The notes beneath the pieces were generated by a model. It was not told the DNA's origin and did not search any database. It saw only the letters and a program-made list of their open reading frames with translations. A program made the position numbers and the translations under genes. This document shows, one piece after another, positions 5,558-14,318 of a stretch of 64,000 nt of DNA. Source of the stretch: Gemmatimonas aurantiaca T-27 (GTDB lineage: Bacteria; Gemmatimonadota; Gemmatimonadetes; Gemmatimonadales; Gemmatimonadaceae); contig NC_012489.1 in the NCBI RefSeq assembly GCF_000010305.1, positions 4,409,646 to 4,473,645 of the forward strand, given 5' to 3'. Every line of letters starts with the position of its first letter. The first letter of the stretch is position 1.

Positions 5558-6964
5558 TCAGCGTGCGACCGGCGTAGACGCGTCATAACCCTTCACCACG
5601 ATGCGCCATTCGCCGTCGCGCTTGAGCAGGGTCATATGGTCCCGCGCGATCATATCCGGATAGTCGAGCGCAATGACTCCCGTCGCCACCTGGCCATTGA
5701 TGGTGAGCGACTCGATACGCCGCCGCCTCTGCGCTTCATCGGCGGGCGCCCGGCCGCTGGACGAGACGCGGATGTACTCACTCGCCGGCCACTGCCGGTA
5801 TTGTCCGTCCTTGATGCCCACCAGCATGGCATCGGACGCAAACGCCCGACGAAAATGCGCTTCCTGTCCGGTGGCATGTCCATCGAGGTAGGCCTGCAAC
5901 GGCTCCAGCGCGCCGGCCGTCTCACTGGCGCGCATATCGACGACCACCTTGCCGCGGGTGCGACCACTCCGGCTGTGCTGCTGCGCGGCCATGATTTGAT
6001 CGAGTGTGTACACGCTGTCGATATGCACCTGCAACTGCCCGGCCTCGATGAGCGGTGCAACGTACGCCAGACCACGTGGCACATCCCATGGCGCACGTGA
6101 TGGACAGAGAATGCCCGCCGCACGACACGTCTCCGCCGGCACCGACCCGGCCGATGACACCAGCCGCCCACCACGACGCACCACCGCCACCGATCGAGTG
6201 AGCGTTTCTCCCCCGACCGCGTCCACCACCACATCCATGTTGCGCGCCACGTCTTCGAAACGCGTGGTGGTGTAGTCGATCATCTGTGCTGCGCCCAGCG
6301 CGCGCACAAAGTCATGATTGCGCGCCGACGCGGTACCGATCACCGTGGCGCCGCGCGCTGTGGCGATCTGCACCACCATCGAGCCCACGCCACCCGATGC
6401 GCCATGCACCAGCACCCGCTCGCCGCGCTGCACATCGGCGCCCGCAATGAGAAAACGCCACGCAGCAATGGCCACCGTCGGATAGGCCGAGGCTTCCTGC
6501 ATGCTGTAGCGCGCAGGCTTTTTCACCATGGCATCGAGCGGTGCCACCAGATACTCGGCATAGCTACCGCCCGTCTCCATCTGATCCACCGTGCCCGCCA
6601 CACGATCACCGCATCGATAGCGCGTGACACCGGCACCCACAGCCACCACCTCTCCGGCAAAGTCCCCACCGGGAATGGCGAGCGGCTTGAGATCCCCTTC
6701 GTCCTGCAGCTTCCAGTCCACCGGATTCACGCTCGCCGCATGCACACGGACCAACACGGTATTCGGTGTCACACGTGGCAGTGCGACCGTGTCGACGCGC
6801 AACACGCGCGTGTTGCCCTCACCATGCACACGGGCCGCGCGCATGACGGACGGCAGCGCACCGCACGTTTGTGTCATGCGCAACGGTATCATCGGCGGTC
6901 TCGGTACGACGGACACTGTTGATGCCATCGAGGTCATCACGGCCAGCATCGTGAAGCTCATCAT
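5558..6964 (-). CDS. MDR quinone-oxidoreductase-like protein fused to NTF2-like domain
   Basis: 468 residues. Residues about 40-340 form a medium-chain dehydrogenase/reductase of the quinone-oxidoreductase group, with the nucleotide-binding loop HGASGGVGSMVVQ near residue 190 and no obvious catalytic or structural zinc cysteines. Residues about 353-468 look like an NTF2/SnoaL-type or putative lumazine-binding domain (LEPLQAYLDGHATG, and a C-terminal DGEWRIVVKGYDA typical of that fold), an unusual partner. The start is set by GGAGG five bases before the ATG at 6964; this ATG overlaps TGA of the PEP-CTERM frame (ATGA). The N-terminus is Met-rich and hydrophobic, so export is possible but not clear. 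Third gene of an operon with a PEP-CTERM-type protein and a lipoprotein. Confidence 0.85.
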   Translation of the reverse strand: MMSFTMLAVMTSMASTVSVVPRPPMIPLRMTQTCGALPSVMRAARVHGEGNTRVLRVDTVALPRVTPNTVLVRVHAASVNPVDWKLQDEGDLKPLAIPGGDFAGEVVAVGAGVTRYRCGDRVAGTVDQMETGGSYAEYLVAPLDAMVKKPARYSMQEASAYPTVAIAAWRFLIAGADVQRGERVLVHGASGGVGSMVVQIATARGATVIGTASARNHDFVRALGAAQMIDYTTTRFEDVARNMDVVVDAVGGETLTRSVAVVRRGGRLVSSAGSVPAETCRAAGILCPSRAPWDVPRGLAYVAPLIEAGQLQVHIDSVYTLDQIMAAQQHSRSGRTRGKVVVDMRASETAGALEPLQAYLDGHATGQEAHFRRAFASDAMLVGIKDGQYRQWPASEYIRVSSSGRAPADEAQRRRRIESLTINGQVATGVIALDYPDMIARDHMTLLKRDGEWRIVVKGYDASTPVAR

Positions 6965-7064
6965 GCGTGCCTCCGGCGTGACCATGTCATGAGCGCCACC
7001 GTGCCGATACCCAACAGCACAAACGTCGACGGTTCGGGCACTGTGGTCGGTGGTGGATCGATCA
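6961..7064 (-). other. Out-of-frame PEP-CTERM anchor (-1 frame)
   Basis: Directly after the stop of the preceding exported protein, the -1 reading frame encodes a complete PEP-CTERM sorting tail: a proline-rich linker, VPEPSTFVLLGIGTVALMTW (7041 downwards), then RRRHA and a TGA at 6963-6961. This stop overlaps the ATG of the downstream dehydrogenase as ATGA, as expected for the true end of the upstream gene. The tail is clearly real as a motif. Whether the frame break is a mutation, an assembly error or programmed is open. Confidence 0.8.
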
Positions 7065-7904
7065 CACTTCCGTCACTGCACACGTCACCCAGCGCGGTGT
7101 GCCATCGGCATCGCCGAAGCTGGTGTTGGTGTCGAGGTAGCGCGTGCAGAACGCCGCCACACCAACGTCACTGTCAGCAAAACGCGCCCAGGTGCTCACG
7201 CCCACCGAATGCACATTGGCGGCATCGAACCAGGCATCCGTGAAGGTGAGGAACTGATAGCCACCATTCCCACAGGTCCACATTTCCGTCTGGTAGAACG
7301 CATCCACGCCCCCGTTCGCGGCTGCCACACCACAGCCGCCCACATACTGCGTGAGCAGTTGGCCGCTACCGTTGTCGACCTGGAGCGCATTGGTGAAAGC
7401 GAGATAGTTGTCGAACTCCGGACTCGCCGACGTAGCCGTGCTGCTGCGCGCGGTGTGACGCCAGCCGTCGGTATACACAGGATAAGGCGCCACAGACGGA
7501 TCGTCCGTCAGCACCAGCGCGGACGTCAGTCCGAGTTCGTCGGAAATGTCCGTGGTACCAGCCGGTGTGACCGCGCTGCCTGCATACGCAAAATGAAAGC
7601 CCGTCAGTGCGCTGACGACGGCGGCGTTGTTCGCCGGTTGACCTTCTGCGTGTCGCACGAACAGATCCACGGCCGTCCCGATACGACCACCGGCACCGTC
7701 GAAAAACGCGGTGGTGGTGAGCTCGAGATACGTGCACGAACGCACCCCGCCGGTGAAACACACCGTGAACGCGCGGCTGTCCGCGCGGGCCGCGGTGGGA
7801 GCGAACACCGTCGCCCCCACCCCTCCCACCCATAGCAGCGCGCCCACCGACCAGAGCCGGAGTTGCCCGAAGGTCCCCAGCGTGCGGAGAAGAAAGCGCG
7901 CCAT
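7062..7904 (-). CDS. Exported PEP-CTERM-type protein, frameshifted at C-terminus
   Basis: 280 residues as read, starting with a Sec signal (cleavage probably after the ARA before DSRAF). The mature part has no family I recognise; it is rich in Thr/Ala/Asp and contains several cysteines (VCFTGG, RSCTY, GGCG, MWTCG, FCTRY, VTCA), typical of secreted beta-rich proteins. It ends prematurely with a TGA at 7062, while the -1 frame continues into a PEP-CTERM anchor ending at 6961. The intact gene probably spanned 6961-7904 and would have been sorted by an exosortase encoded elsewhere. It follows the lipoprotein gene with only 2 bp between stop and start and is coupled to the dehydrogenase fusion. 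Confidence 0.75.
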   Translation of the reverse strand: MARFLLRTLGTFGQLRLWSVGALLWVGGVGATVFAPTAARADSRAFTVCFTGGVRSCTYLELTTTAFFDGAGGRIGTAVDLFVRHAEGQPANNAAVVSALTGFHFAYAGSAVTPAGTTDISDELGLTSALVLTDDPSVAPYPVYTDGWRHTARSSTATSASPEFDNYLAFTNALQVDNGSGQLLTQYVGGCGVAAANGGVDAFYQTEMWTCGNGGYQFLTFTDAWFDAANVHSVGVSTWARFADSDVGVAAFCTRYLDTNTSFGDADGTPRWVTCAVTEV

Positions 7905-7906
7905 GA

Positions 7907-8359
7907 TCAGCGCGCCTCTCCGGCCAACCGGCTTCCCAACGGGCTTCCCAACGGGTTCACCAACGGCGCCACGGCCGGATGGACGAGCTGACTGCGTACC
8001 ACCTGGAGCTGCACCGCCAGTGCCGCCCGATCGGCCTGGTCGAGCGTCTGGGCAGCCTGCGAAAAGTCGAGCGTCAGTTCGGCGTCATGCAGTGCCGTCA
8101 GCGCCGCCTCGCGATCGGCCCCCACCAGTGCGCGGTGCAGCGCGCCAAATGCCTGGGCGACGGGTGTCTCCCGCCCAAGATCAGCGAGCAGGCGAGAACT
8201 GGCGTCATCGACCATCACGGCCAGTGTGGCGGTGAGTTGCTGCTGACGGGCGTCAGCGGCGACATCGGGCACTTCAATAGAAGGGGCGACCGGATGCGCA
8301 TCCGCGCAGGCGGTCAGGGTGGAAGCCGCCACCAGGAGAGACCAGGAGAGACGGCGCAT
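7907..8359 (-). CDS. Putative lipoprotein of unknown function
   Basis: With the ATG at 8359 this is a 150-residue lipoprotein: MRRLSWSLLVAASTLTAC carries a clean lipobox with the lipidated cysteine at residue 18. The mature part is mostly alpha-helical and Ala/Leu-rich (LDQADRAALAVQLQVVRSQL), with a Pro/Gly-rich end (LVNPLGSPLGSRL). An ATG at 8401 in the same frame would add 14 residues before the signal. First gene of a minus-strand operon with the PEP-CTERM-type protein, divergent from the S74 fibre gene. No family recognised. Confidence 0.7.
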   Translation of the reverse strand: MRRLSWSLLVAASTLTACADAHPVAPSIEVPDVAADARQQQLTATLAVMVDDASSRLLADLGRETPVAQAFGALHRALVGADREAALTALHDAELTLDFSQAAQTLDQADRAALAVQLQVVRSQLVHPAVAPLVNPLGSPLGSRLAGEAR

Positions 8360-8518
8360 CGGCGTCGATGGCGTGAGGTGAATGGACTGTGCGGGCGACA
8401 TGATCGGAGATCCGAAGAAAGGGCAAGGAAGTCCGGCGCCTGGTCAGGAACCGCTGATCGGTCCCTCGGCGTCCGGTCGTGTGGAACGCCCCTAACGTCG
8501 CGACGGCCGTCTCCGGGT

Positions 8519-8551
8519 CATCACCGACCCATCACCTGCCTATCACCTGAC
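8519..8551. promoter_or_regulatory. Three 11-bp-spaced heptamer direct repeats
   Basis: CATCACC at 8519-8525, CATCACC at 8530-8536 and TATCACC at 8541-8547 recur with an exact 11-bp period. SARP regulators with an OmpR-type HTH recognise heptamers with this spacing near the -35 region. A SARP-like gene lies 2.8 kb downstream (11355). The array is in the divergent promoter region between the lipoprotein operon (start 8359) and the S74 fibre gene (start 8662). An inverted copy, GGTGATGGG (8565-8573), pairs with CCCATCACC (8528-8536). I see no convincing -10 box. The repeat is observed; its use is inferred. Confidence 0.5.
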
Positions 8552-8661
8552 CGTTTTTTGGCCCGGTGATGGGCAGGCGAAGGCGATTTCGAGCTTGTCG
8601 GCGTCCAACGCGGCCCACCTGGCCGTGCGACCTGACCACCCGACTCCTTCACGAGACTTCC

Positions 8662-10374
8662 ATGTCCTCCTTTGCACGCTGCGCCGATGCACGTGGCACC
8701 GTTCGGCATTTCCGTTTCCAGCCGCTGACGCTCGCTGCTTCCACCCTCGCCGTTGCCGCGCTGACGTTGGCCTCGGCGTTGACCGCTTCCCCGCTGGAAG
8801 CCCAGGCGGTCTTTCATGCCTGCTACGTTCCCGCATCAGGAACGGTTTATCGCGTCAAGGCACCCAACACGCCGGCCAACTGCCTGCAGCCCACGCATGT
8901 CGCGTTCAGTTGGACCGACGGCGCTGACGCCGCAGCCGCATTGCAGAACGCGGTCAAGAAGACCGATGTGGCGGCGGGTGATGTGACCGGGGTGTTCAGC
9001 AACCTCACGGTTGGCAAGCTGCTGGGCCGAGCATTGGCCACGACCCCGCCGACCGACGGGCAGGTGCTGGCCTGGAATGCGTCGACCAGCCAATGGGAGG
9101 CGAAGACGGTGGCGGCCGGCGGTGGGAACGGCGTCAGCGACCATGGCGCGCTGACGGGGCTCGGCGATGACGACCACGCGCAGTACCTGCTCTCGAGCGG
9201 TGTGCGGACGTCGATCGGCTTTGCGGTCCAGAGCCCGAGCGGGGTTTCTGCTCTGCCAGTGCTCACCGATCCCAATAAGCCGACCCTACTGTGGGCCGGG
9301 AGCTACGGCGCACTGCGAACCGGATTCGACGGCGTGGGCGGCTGGGCGGCGAACAAGATCGGCGGGGCGTCCGCCTCATTCGGGGACAACAATGAAGCCT
9401 CTGGCTGGGGGTCGTTCTCGGCCACGGCGTATGCCGTCGCTTCTGGCATGTACAGCATTGCGATGGGAACCAACGCTGAAGCCACCAACGTGAGCGCAAT
9501 CGCATTGGGGCCGTATGCCCGCGCCTCGGGCAATAGCGCGATCGCCTTCACGGGTGGCATCGCCAGCGCCAACGATGCGATGGCGTGGCGGGGCAAAGCC
9601 GAAGGTACTGGATCGTTGGCGTTGGGAAGCGGTTCGAACGCCACCGGAAACCAGGCGATGGCCTTTGGCGTGGGAAGCGCGGCGGCCAACTATTCGATGG
9701 CCTTGAACGGCGATGCCGGAGGCACGTCGTCGACGGCGATCCGCGGCATCTCGTCGGGCGACCACAGTGTGGCCATCGGGCGCAACGCCAATACCAACTA
9801 CCAGGCCAACGCCATTGTGTTGAGCGCTTCGCAATCGATGGGAGTTGCAAAGGCGCTGGCCGATGGCCACTTCGTGATGCAGGGCTATCGATTCTGGATG
9901 GGCAATGGTCCGCAGACTGCCATCACGCCGGGACGCTTCCTCGAAACCAGCACGGGTGCGTACCTCTCGACGGGCGGCACCTGGACCAACACCTCCGACT
10001 CCACCAAGAAGGCAAACTTCCGCGCTGTCGACGGCGAATCGGTGCTGAGCACACTGGCCGCGCTGCCGGTGTACACGTGGAACTACACCGCAGAAGACAC
10101 CACCACGCGCCACATGGGCCCCACCGCACAGGCGTTCCGCGCGGCCTTCAATCTCGGCGACACCGACAAGGCGATCAGCACGGTGGACATCGATGGTGTG
10201 GCCATCGCCGGTGTGAAGGCGCTCGAAGCGCGTACCAAGTCGCTCAAGACCGAAACGATCGCACTGCGTGAAGAGAATGCGGCACTCACCGCGCGTCTGT
10301 CGCAGCTCGAGGCACTGGTGGCGCAGCTTGCCAACCAGCTCGCCACCCAGCAGTCCAACACCACGCGCAATCCG
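8662..10374 (+). CDS. Secreted YadA-head-like fibre with S74 chaperone tail
   Basis: 570-571 residues from the ATG at 8662 (stop TGA at 10375-10377). A Sec signal ends near residue 49 (PLEAQA). A phage-tail-fibre-like stretch, DHGALTGLGDDDHAQYL, is near residue 160. About residues 240-400 hold YadA-head-like repeats of about 14-16 residues (AIAMGTNAEATN, SIALG-like, SLALGSGSNATGN, SVAIGRNANTN) that form left-handed beta-roll trimers. Residues about 450-560 are a peptidase-S74 intramolecular chaperone (SDSTKKANFRAVDG, then a terminal coiled coil KTETIALREENAALTARL). In such proteins the C-terminal chaperone trimerises and then cleaves itself off. No YadA translocator barrel is present. The stop overlaps the globin start, so expression is linked. 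Confidence 0.85.
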
Positions 10375-10376
10375 TG

Positions 10377-10829
10377 ATGACCGCCGACCAGATCGCCACG
10401 ATCCGGTCGACCTGGAACCTGATGGGAGCCACCACCGATGCGGTGGCTCCCCTGTTCTATGACCGGCTCTTTCAACGCGACCCACTGCTGCGCGCCCTGT
10501 TCACGAGCACGGACATGCCGGCGCAGGGCGAAAAGCTCGCCCAGACCCTCGCCGTGGTGGTGCGGGGTCTCGATCATCTCGATCAACTGATGCCGGCCGT
10601 TCAGGCACTTGGCCGCCGGCACGCGACCTACGGTGTGCAGGACGCCCACTACGATCTCGTGGGTGCGGCCTTGCTTGATACGTTCGCGGATATCCTGGGT
10701 GATGCTTTCACCGCCGACGCGCGCTCGGCATGGGCCACCGCCTATGGCGCGCTCGCGACCGTGATGCAACAAGCCGCCGCATCGGCGAACGCCCATGCGA
10801 CCACGCACGCTGCGATCAGCGCACCGTGA
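10377..10829 (+). CDS. Single-domain bacterial globin
   Basis: 150-residue haem globin of the Vitreoscilla/flavohaemoglobin type. Predicted haem-pocket residues are CD1 Phe42 (LLRALFTS), E7 Gln50 (MPAQGEKLAQ) and proximal F8 His82 in ALGRRHATYGV, with Tyr85 beside it. There is no reductase domain. Members bind oxygen or NO and act in NO detoxification or gas sensing; which applies here is unknown. The ATG at 10377 overlaps the TGA of the S74 gene by one base; an in-frame GTG one codon earlier is also possible. Its stop overlaps the GTG start of the globin-like gene that follows. Confidence 0.9.
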   Translation: MTADQIATIRSTWNLMGATTDAVAPLFYDRLFQRDPLLRALFTSTDMPAQGEKLAQTLAVVVRGLDHLDQLMPAVQALGRRHATYGVQDAHYDLVGAALLDTFADILGDAFTADARSAWATAYGALATVMQQAAASANAHATTHAAISAP

Positions 10830-11299
10830 GTGTGGTCGATGCCTCAGGTGAGGATGCCGGCGTTGCGTCGATGGCAGGCGTCCCGGCATCATCACCATTC
10901 ACCACACTCATCGCGCAGATCACCGCCGTCCGTGTGCCGATGGCCAGCGCGTTTGCCGTCCGACTCGATCGCCTGCGCGGCATGGGCAGTCCGGTGCCAT
11001 TGCTCGATCGTGACGTGATCGACGCCTGGTTTCTGTCATTGCTGGCGACACTGCAGGTCCCACTCGATGATCCCGCCATTGTGCCAACCCTCGCCACGCT
11101 GGTGGCCCATGGGCGGGCGCACGGCATCGACGGGGCCGGTCAGCGCGTTGGACTCGAAGCCTTTGTCTGGGCATGCCGGGATGTCCTGCCGGATGATTGT
11201 CCCACGCGCCTGGCCGCGGAAATGGGTGCGCGTGGTGCTGTCATCGATCGACTGGCGGTGCGACGCATGACTTCCCCCACGTCGCCGATCGACGCATGA
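10826..11299 (+). CDS. Degenerate globin-like protein
   Basis: 157 residues from a GTG at 10826 that shares GTGA with the globin stop. No clear family by motif. However, residues about 72-145 follow the layout of the neighbouring globin from the E helix onwards: LLATLQVPLDD then TLVAHGRAHGID, in the place of ALGRRHATYGV, then a long helix and an acidic turn. A histidine at residue 95 or 99 could be the proximal ligand; the CD1 Phe and E7 Gln are not obvious. It may be a divergent partner or a sensor globin that arose by tandem duplication. The relationship is inference; the coding status is supported by the overlap and open frame. Confidence 0.65.
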   Translation: MSVVDASGEDAGVASMAGVPASSPFTTLIAQITAVRVPMASAFAVRLDRLRGMGSPVPLLDRDVIDAWFLSLLATLQVPLDDPAIVPTLATLVAHGRAHGIDGAGQRVGLEAFVWACRDVLPDDCPTRLAAEMGARGAVIDRLAVRRMTSPTSPIDA

Positions 11300-11300
11300 T

Positions 11301-11333
11301 GGAGACGTCTCCGCGCGCCTGGTGGGCGCGCGG
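11301..11333. promoter_or_regulatory. 12-bp palindrome and GC hairpin before SARP gene
   Basis: GGAGACGTCTCC (11301-11312) is a perfect palindrome. It runs into a 9-bp perfect stem, CCGCGCGCC (11311-11319) and GGCGCGCGG (11325-11333), with a 5-base loop. This lies between the globin-like stop (11299) and the SARP start (11355). The hairpin may act as a terminator or attenuator (no long T-run follows, only CGTTTTCG), and the palindrome as an operator. Function is not shown by sequence. Confidence 0.45.
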
Positions 11334-11354
11334 CAATCTCGTTTTCGTCATGAC

Positions 11355-14318
11355 ATGAATCGGTTTGTCACCTTCGGTGGTTGCGCAGTCGTTTCCAGTG
11401 GTGGTGAGGTGCGTGGCGCTGCGACCCAGCAGCGTCGGCTCGCCCTGTTGGCGGTGTTGGCCCGCGCGGGCGAACGCGGCGTATCGCGCACCCGCCTGTT
11501 GTCGTTGTTCTGGCCTGATGAAGACGATGATGAGCGTCGCCGCAAAGCCCTCGCGCAGGCGCTGTATGCGTTGCGTCGCGATCTCGGCGATGAGCGCATC
11601 ATCACCGGTTCGCAGGAACTCAAGCTCGACGCCGAGGTTTTGCCGCACGATGTCGGCGAGTTCATGCACCACCTGCGGCATGGTCGTCACGCAGAAGCGG
11701 TAGCGCTGTACGACGGCCCGTTTCTGAGTGGTTTCCATCTCGTCGGAGCACCAGCATTCGAGCGATGGGCCGATGAAGAGCGTCGAGTGCTGGAGCGTGA
11801 CTACACGCGCGCGCTCGAAACGCTGGCCGGCAACGCAGAGCGACAGGGACAGCGCGCTGAAGCCATTACCTACTGGCGCAAGCTGGCGGCAGTCGATCCA
11901 CTCGATTCACGGGCCACGCTCGCCCTCATGCGGGCCTTGGCAGCCAATGGTGAAGTGTCGGCAGCCATCCGACAGGCCGCCATTCACGAAACGCTGTTTC
12001 AGCAGGAGCTCGAGCTTCCGCCCGATCGGGAAGTGATGGCATTTGCGATGGAGTTGCGTGCCCGACAGGGCACCGAGCCTGTCGCGCCGTTGGTACCGGT
12101 TGACGTGGCGCCTGTTGTGGCCGCACCGGTCCCGGTGTTGGCTGGCGCGACGGACGACACGATCGCCGAGCCGCCAGCGGCGGTCTCAATCGCATCGCTG
12201 GTAACACCGCTGACAGTGGCGCTGGCAACACCTTTGCGTCGTCGATGGACTCGCGCGCGTGTGTTGGCAGTGGCGGTCGGTGTGGCTGCACTGGCCGCTT
12301 TGGGCACATGGGGCGTCTCGGCGTTGCAACATCACGAACCGGCACCGGGCGAACCGCGCTATCACGCACCACCAAGCATTGCCGTCGGTCTCATCGCGGA
12401 TTTCCGTGAACCGTCGACCGGTCCGGTGCGCTCTCTCGCGGCATTGCTGGCCACCAGTCTCGCCCGCAGCGAAGCGTTGCGTGTGGTGAGTGCCGCGCGA
12501 CTCAGTGAATTGCTGCACCACGGTGGCGTGGGTGACAGCACCGAGGCGGCGTATATCAGTGCGGCGCGGCGGGCCGGTGCGCATGAACTCATTGACGGAT
12601 CACTGTTCGATCCCGGTGATGGCACGCTGCGTCTCGACTTGCGCCGCGTGGATGTGGAGACCGGCTCCGTGCTGGCCGCACTCACCATTCGAGGCCAGGA
12701 TCTCTTTGCGCTAGCCGATAGTGGCACGGCGCGTCTGCTCGATGGCTTCGGCATCGAGCCACTCGCCGGCAGTGTGCGTGATGTGACCACCCGTTCCGCC
12801 GTGGCACACCGCTTCTATGCCGAAGGACTGAAAGCCAACGCGTCCTACGATCTGGAGGCGGCCCGTCGACTGTTTGGTGAAGCGCTGCGGGCCGACTCCC
12901 AGTTTGCGATGGCGGCGTACGAGTACGCGCGTGTCAATCCGAATCGCGCCGAGTTGGCGGAAGAGATGTCGCGAGCGCTACACCTGGCCAAGCGCGCGAC
13001 CGCACGTGAGCGACTGATCATTCGGGCAGGATGGGCGTCCACCATGCAGGTGGCGGGGCTCAAGGAAACCGCCGACTCCTTGCTGCAGCTCGACCAGAGC
13101 GACCCGCAGGCATTGTTGTTCGCTGCTGAAGCGCGACTCAATCTGGGCCTGCCGGGTGAAGCCATTCCGTTGTTGCAACGTGCGCTCGCCATCGATTCGG
13201 CAGCACTTGGCGCGGTACGCCCGGAGCACTGTTACGCCTGTGAAGCCGTGCAGATGTTGTCACGTGCGTATCTCGATCAGGACAATCCCGACGCTGCCAT
13301 CGCCATCATCAAGCGCTGGGTGGACCGTCAGCCGCAGTCGACCGAGGCGTGGGCGTCGTACTCCCGCGTGCTCGATTTCACCGGACGTCTGCCCGAAGCC
13401 TCGCGTGCGCTCGATCGTGCGCTGGCGCTCAATCCGGCCTATCCGGCTGGCTTTGTGCGACGTGTGAGTAATCTGCTGCGTGCGGCACGATTGTCAGAAG
13501 CCGAACAACTGGCGCGCGAGCAGACCACACTGGCCACGGCAGACCAACGGCTCGATGGATGGTGGCAGCTTGCCACCGTGCTCCGTCATCAGGGTCGCAT
13601 GCGCGACGCGCTCGTGGCCGTCAATCGTTTTCGTGCCATACGGGATACGGTGGATGGTGGTCAGATGGCACTCAATCATGCCTACCTGCCGGCACTCATT
13701 CTGGCCGATGCCGGACGCATCCCGGCCGCCATTGCCCTGTTCGATTCGATGGCCACCGGTGCCATTCGGCCAGGAGAACACGATGCCAATGTACGACGCC
13801 TGCGCACCATCTCGCTGACGGCCGCCGCCGACCTGGTGGCCCAACAAGGTGACACCACGTCACTGCAGGCGCGCATGCGTGCCATCGAAGAAGCGGGTTC
13901 ACAGAGCGGCGTGGTGCGCGATACGCGGGCGCACCACTATGTACGTGGCCTGCTCTGGCGGGCGCGTGGCAAGTCGGACTTGGCGATCACCGAGTTCCAG
14001 GCTGCCATGGCTCCGCCGCTGCGGGGCTATCACTCACGCATCAACATCGAGCTGGCACGCGGCCTGGTGACACGCGGTGAACCCGATGCCGCCATCACCG
14101 CCGTGCGCTTCATCATGCGCGATGTAGTGGATGGCATTGCCGTTACACAGACCGAGATGCATGAAGTGCTGGCCCAGGCTCATCATGCCGCCGGCCGCGC
14201 CGACTCCGCCTCGTTTCACGCGGACTGGGTGAAGCGTGCCTGGTCGACGGGCGAACCTGCGTATCAGGCACGAGCGCAACGACTGTCGCAATTCATCGGC
14301 GTGCGCGCAACGCGATAG
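11355..14318 (+). CDS. SARP/BTAD-TPR transcriptional regulator, membrane-bound
   Basis: 987 residues from the ATG at 11355. Residues 1-95 form an OmpR-like winged helix (GAATQQRRLALLAVLARAG and the SRTRLLSLFWPD region); residues about 100-240 are the BTAD helical domain (ALYDGPFLSGFHL, YWRKLAAVDPLDSRATL). A Pro/Ala-rich linker leads to one membrane helix at about 297-320 (VLAVAVGVAALAALGTWGV). Then comes a FlgO/TolB-like domain (PSIAVGLIADF, about 335-470) and a long TPR array to the C-terminus. This layout, with DNA binding in the cytoplasm and sensing outside the membrane, is common among Gemmatimonadota and Acidobacteria regulators. The heptamer repeats at 8519-8551 are a plausible target. 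Confidence 0.85.
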   Translation: MNRFVTFGGCAVVSSGGEVRGAATQQRRLALLAVLARAGERGVSRTRLLSLFWPDEDDDERRRKALAQALYALRRDLGDERIITGSQELKLDAEVLPHDVGEFMHHLRHGRHAEAVALYDGPFLSGFHLVGAPAFERWADEERRVLERDYTRALETLAGNAERQGQRAEAITYWRKLAAVDPLDSRATLALMRALAANGEVSAAIRQAAIHETLFQQELELPPDREVMAFAMELRARQGTEPVAPLVPVDVAPVVAAPVPVLAGATDDTIAEPPAAVSIASLVTPLTVALATPLRRRWTRARVLAVAVGVAALAALGTWGVSALQHHEPAPGEPRYHAPPSIAVGLIADFREPSTGPVRSLAALLATSLARSEALRVVSAARLSELLHHGGVGDSTEAAYISAARRAGAHELIDGSLFDPGDGTLRLDLRRVDVETGSVLAALTIRGQDLFALADSGTARLLDGFGIEPLAGSVRDVTTRSAVAHRFYAEGLKANASYDLEAARRLFGEALRADSQFAMAAYEYARVNPNRAELAEEMSRALHLAKRATARERLIIRAGWASTMQVAGLKETADSLLQLDQSDPQALLFAAEARLNLGLPGEAIPLLQRALAIDSAALGAVRPEHCYACEAVQMLSRAYLDQDNPDAAIAIIKRWVDRQPQSTEAWASYSRVLDFTGRLPEASRALDRALALNPAYPAGFVRRVSNLLRAARLSEAEQLAREQTTLATADQRLDGWWQLATVLRHQGRMRDALVAVNRFRAIRDTVDGGQMALNHAYLPALILADAGRIPAAIALFDSMATGAIRPGEHDANVRRLRTISLTAAADLVAQQGDTTSLQARMRAIEEAGSQSGVVRDTRAHHYVRGLLWRARGKSDLAITEFQAAMAPPLRGYHSRINIELARGLVTRGEPDAAITAVRFIMRDVVDGIAVTQTEMHEVLAQAHHAAGRADSASFHADWVKRAWSTGEPAYQARAQRLSQFIGVRATR

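Follow-up and report, generated by a model that had tools for sequence, protein, structure and literature searches.

The SARPs of Streptomyces, among them PimR, ActII-ORF4, DnrI, and AfsR, have a winged helix, a BTAD domain, and heptamer operators. Published SARP boxes consist of heptamers with 4-nt spacers, in 11-bp (sometimes 10-bp) units present in two or three copies (PMC5930380; PMC10972967). In globin-coupled sensors, a globin is fused to a transmitter domain, and in the RsbR sensors of the stressosome, a non-haem globin is fused to STAS. Hell's Gate globin I and Vitreoscilla haemoglobin represent the single-domain haem globins. In haem globins, F8 His is the proximal, haem-ligating residue, and B10 Tyr and E7 Gln have recognized roles as well. 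Fibres of the YadA-head/S74 (endosialidase-chaperone) type join head repeats to an S74 domain, an intramolecular chaperone with a Ser...Lys dyad.

Here, we describe a locus of Gemmatimonas aurantiaca T-27 in which parts of these systems stand together. The window (the whole stretch of 64,000 nucleotides that was analyzed) comes from a genome that is a single contig of 4,636,964 bases. We compared it with a sample of 148 genomes (G numbers; L numbers denote loci). Among the relatives, the Desfum bins G069 and G146 are MAGs of the Gemmatimonadaceae, G028 is a soil Gemmatimonas MAG, G043 is Roseisolibacter sp. H3M3-2, and G397 is the MAG SZUA-318. Judging from the sequences, we think it fairly probable that the locus is an autoregulated SARP regulon that coexpresses envelope and surface proteins with a globin/pseudo-globin pair.

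Gene organization

The features of the locus are listed in Table 1. An earlier note on this DNA had described it as a candidate unit with overlapping genes, and the overlaps on which it relied were confirmed: the fibre stop and the globin start have one base in common (TGATG), and the globin and the pseudo-globin, P3, overlap by 4 nt (GTGA). P3 is separated from the SARP gene, with its start at 11355, by 55 nt. The divergent lipoprotein/PEP-CTERM operon of the same note does contain both genes, but the PEP-CTERM signal (VPEPSTFVLLGIG...RRRHA) is in another frame, at about 6955 to 7090 on the minus strand, just past the stop of the 7062-7904 gene. The signal is in frame in four relatives, so either a frameshift has occurred in the window copy or an indel error was made in its sequencing. 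An exosortase is encoded in the window genome.

Table 1. Coordinates of the features of the locus within the window
Feature	Position	Strand	Description
Secreted PEP-CTERM-type protein	7062..7904	-	Sorting signal not in frame in the window copy
Small lipoprotein	7907..8401	-	First gene of the divergent operon
SARP-box-like array	8509..8550	+	ATCACC units at 8520, 8531, and 8542 (11-bp period); degenerate fourth at 8509
Reverse-oriented pair	8565..8580	-	TCGCCTG-N4-TCAC(C); faces the lipoprotein operon; kept in relatives
Secreted fibre	8662..10377	+	N-terminus of the Sec type; YadA-head repeats; S74 domain (SDSTKK), an intramolecular chaperone; coiled coil at the C-terminus
Single-domain haem globin	10377..10829	+	Hell's Gate globin I/VHb type; F8 His, B10 Tyr, E7 Gln
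Pseudo-globin (P3)	10826..11299	+	Globin fold by prediction; Gly in place of F8 His; haem probably absent
Membrane SARP	11355..14318	+	Winged helix with BTAD; a single hydrophobic segment; outer half predicted as small alpha/beta domain and TPR superhelix; alternative start GTG at 11322

The SARP and the fibre

The regulator that follows the globins had been called a membrane-bound SARP/TPR protein, and our searches bear this out. The BTAD domain matched at 1.8e-13 (51.5 bits against a cut-off of 22.1), and TPRs are present. The BTAD domain stands behind an N-terminal winged helix of the OmpR type (23.9 bits, just under the cut-off of 26.2), which is the arrangement that defines the SARP/BTAD class. 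A single hydrophobic segment lies near residues 303 to 321 and has the same position in most full-length relatives, being weaker in L016.

Using family profiles, we found YadA_head (8.5e-11) and Peptidase_S74 (3.2e-10; 40.6 bits against a cut-off of 22) in the fibre. The start of the S74 domain, SDSTKK, is kept in the three congeners, and L071 and L073 have SD...K. The profile search showed only head repeats and S74; because the YadA membrane anchor was absent from it, we do not regard the fibre as a trimeric autotransporter. A phage origin was considered and rejected, the only match to a PHROG tail fibre being weak (7.9e-4).

The haem globin and the pseudo-globin

The globin at 10377-10829 has 150 amino acids, matches Pfam Globin at 1e-16, and has no reductase domain. 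Its closest PDB matches are Hell's Gate globin I and Vitreoscilla haemoglobin, and in an alignment with E. coli Hmp, the residues F8 His, B10 Tyr, and E7 Gln match. O2 or NO chemistry is thus plausible for it.

P3 (10826-11299) had no Pfam or NCBIfam match, and its only homologues with good support were those of the three congeners. Sequence comparison was set aside as proof that P3 is a globin (hhalign E value of 0.0033, probability of 10%), and since that support is weak, the globin claim rests on a fold model. An AlphaFold model built from two sequences had a mean pLDDT of 79. When it was compared with the PDB, the Z score was 12.4 over 133 residues to Vitreoscilla haemoglobin and 11.7 to the RsbR non-haem globin, values of a size that can arise by chance between helical folds, and the best Foldseek E value was only 0.0063. 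Given these caveats, we accepted the globin fold because the top chains are globins throughout and nearly all match over their full length. The F8 position is Gly in all three aligned sequences, so the proximal histidine is missing, and P3 is probably a haem-less globin. The second protein, called globin-like in the earlier note, has a predicted globin fold but lacks the haem-ligating histidine.

Pairs of a globin with a His-less globin occur in four lineages: the window clade, L068, L077, and L111. Among the tandem globins outside the window clade, one copy in L068/L150 has GRRT for GRRH, one copy in L077 has the F region deleted, and one copy in L111 has lost F8.

Conservation of the gene set

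The gene set and its order are kept in three congeners, G069, G121, and G146. The order oxidoreductase-PEP-CTERM-lipoprotein, then divergently fibre-globin-P3-SARP-MFS, is identical in L016, L017, and L070 with L018, the last being split by contig ends. This synteny is weak evidence alone, because the flanking genes are also conserved. Fibre, globin orthologue, and pseudo-globin were together absent from the ten other Gemmatimonas genomes of the sample; G022 and G142 have a distant globin only, and G022 additionally gave a weak match to the fibre N-terminus.

In G043 (L071), the lipoprotein, the PEP-CTERM protein, and the globin form one run that is divergent from the fibre, and the C-terminus of a SARP is convergent to the fibre. 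This is a shuffled version of the window set. L147 has a 63% SARP and, upstream of it, a gene for a predicted membrane protein that is preceded by an array. This locus possibly represents the N-terminal half that the L071 cluster lacks, although joining the contigs failed.

The intergenic array

The heptamer array between the divergent genes, already pointed out in the earlier note, proved real. At 8520-8547, ATCACC stands three times with a period of 11 bp; this array is unique in the genome and was matched in 0 of 100 shuffles, and the consensus is (A/G)TCACC(T/C)G every 11 bp. The corresponding gaps of L016, L017, L070, L078, L112, L117, and L118 (in L118, ahead of the globin) also carry arrays, with scores that none of 500 Markov shuffles attained. 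The array thus occurs ahead of SARP/globin units from other genera and families as well. The L068 array is weaker (14 of 500 Markov shuffles), and that of L071 has 10-bp units. No clear array was found in L080 or in the gaps ahead of the two L118 SARP genes, which counts against the regulon model.

Over 590 kb, pairs of RTCACCYG occurred 14 times at 11-bp spacing versus 4 times over thirteen other spacings together, a contrast that is somewhat inflated: the octamer was derived from the same loci, two of which (L074 and L118) overlap, and L141 had been included on account of its array. Across the 148 genomes, the three-copy and two-copy patterns gave 20 and 34 matches, the former including tandem repeats, versus 7 and 4 in reversed controls. 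These family-wide matches were not used as a list of the regulon, many two-copy matches lying inside coding sequence. The reverse pair at 8565-8580 is kept in L016, L017, L070, and L071, as read by eye from aligned gaps and scored for L071 only. Scans for promoters and terminators stayed at shuffle level, with no sigma-70-like promoter near the window array. Like the matches inside coding sequence, the lack of such a promoter weighs against the regulon model.

The geometry of the array is that of the published SARP boxes, and we predict that it is an operator. In G016, an array lies upstream of a globin/pseudo-globin pair with no adjoining SARP (L077). At L141 (8085-8793), a SARP gene and a PEP-CTERM gene diverge; an array of three copies lies at the start of the SARP, and there is no globin in the neighborhood. 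From these two arrays, it follows that both the globin and the PEP-CTERM genes are likely targets. In G044, more distant SARPs (L238 and L250) have 11-bp arrays of GTCACCTG in the interval that separates them from a divergent gene, whose secreted product resembles OmpA.

It could be argued that another regulator, e.g., an OmpR-family response regulator, uses the array as its operator and that the SARP is just one more target. There is a precedent in Streptomyces, where AfsR and PhoP have sites in common (PMC10972967). Against this stands the finding that the intergenic arrays outside the unit that were found by pattern mostly adjoin SARP genes, distant ones included: G016 (L128/L141 and L231), G043 (L242), and G044 (L238 and L250). 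We consider another regulator very improbable and retain the SARP as the predicted ligand of the array.

Linkage of the globin to the SARP

The earlier note had linked the globin to the fibre and looked to relatives for the same pairing. The pairing does occur there, but over a wider range it is the SARP, and not the fibre, that stays with the globin. As the core link, fibre-globin was discarded: most fibre relatives have no adjoining globin, and most globins have no fibre. Globin-centered searches placed a SARP near the globin in L068, L071, L078, L080, L112, L117, L118, and the window clade. A SARP stood beside the globin in 8 of 21 collapsed loci versus 0.4 expected from the SARP counts (P of about 2e-9 under a rough model, in which genomes that were not searched were given a SARP count of 20 and L071, L118, and L068 are from one genome). 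The linkage is spread through the phylum: it is also seen outside the family, in G154, and in another family of the class, in G397. Scanning from the SARP side, we found globins only beside close SARP relatives (L145, L148, L150, L153, and L154) and none beside more distant SARPs. In the wider family, SARPs mostly lack a nearby globin, and this too counts against the regulon model.

These counts bear on whether the globin belongs to the regulon at all. It might instead carry out housekeeping O2 or NO chemistry in a variable surface-gene island, with a common transcript, no common function, and an array that serves the surface genes only. Many globins of this type do lie in unrelated neighborhoods, and the congener synteny takes in unrelated flanks; however, globin-SARP adjacency is far above expectation, and arrays lie directly upstream of globin units that have no fibre (L078, L117, and L118). 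We regard a housekeeping globin as quite unlikely.

The linkage could also mean that the globin pair is the input of the system. In that case, the haem globin would bind O2 or NO, the haem-less globin would relay its ligand state to the cytoplasmic half of the SARP, and the two would form a split globin-coupled sensor that ties fibre production to gas. That the array precedes the L077 globins, with no adjoining SARP, marks the globins as outputs rather than inputs; the outer TPR half of the SARP could itself sense, and most related SARPs have no linked globin. Such a sensor would nevertheless account for a globin-SARP linkage that crosses genera and families even without the fibre, and for haem/haem-less pairs that recur in four lineages. 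A stand-alone globin in L079 (2940-4888) points the same way: it has a 4-nt overlap with a gene resembling, as read from its sequence, a cyclic-nucleotide-binding histidine kinase, and L079 is possibly another split globin sensor. On balance, we find the gas-input reading doubtful and favor the autoregulated regulon, with the globins among its products.

Discussion

In an autoregulated regulon, the SARP would span the membrane, with its DNA-binding half on the cytoplasmic side and its TPR half on the outer side. Upon a signal, the SARP would bind the 11-bp repeats at 8509-8580 and activate the fibre, globin, pseudo-globin, and SARP genes, presumably as one transcript, in a positive feedback; in the opposite direction, it would activate the lipoprotein and PEP-CTERM genes. 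The predicted products are a secreted fibre processed by its S74 domain, envelope proteins, and a cytoplasmic globin pair, which may handle O2 or NO during the surface program. Gas-dependent adhesion or aggregation, the idea put forward in the earlier note, fits this model as a candidate role.

This provides a predicted regulator, operator, and regulon, all accessible to tests in a cultured strain, for a phylum with few studied regulators. It would also extend SARPs from antibiotic clusters to the membrane-bound control of envelope genes. The recurrent haem/haem-less gene pairs suggest a globin arrangement of which we found no description in a literature search that covered few subscription papers. 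The same search gave no account of a membrane SARP with globins and nothing relevant on Gemmatimonas globins or membrane SARPs.

Like its Streptomyces counterparts, the window SARP has a winged helix, a BTAD domain, and a predicted heptamer operator. However, the ATPase/TPR parts of Streptomyces SARPs are cytoplasmic, whereas the window SARP has a segment for the membrane and, beyond it, a predicted outer half with TPRs; the former are linked to antibiotic genes, and the latter to envelope proteins and globins. The repeat sequence TCACC also sets the window array apart from the Streptomyces operators. The window globin resembles Hell's Gate globin I and Vitreoscilla haemoglobin in sequence and in its F8 His, B10 Tyr, and E7 Gln but differs in that its operon includes a SARP and a His-less globin. 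Unlike in globin-coupled sensors, the globins and the regulator are separate genes. The fold of P3 resembles the N-terminal domain of RsbR (Z score of 11.7), which hints at a possible signaling role, yet P3 is a stand-alone protein of 157 amino acids in which no STAS or transmitter domain was found, and its partner is a SARP. The fibre has the head repeats and the S74 domain with the SD...K motif in common with YadA-head/S74 fibres but lacks the YadA anchor and sits in a chromosomal operon, not in a phage tail. Every part of the locus is thus already known, and it is the combination that is, to our knowledge, new and previously undescribed.
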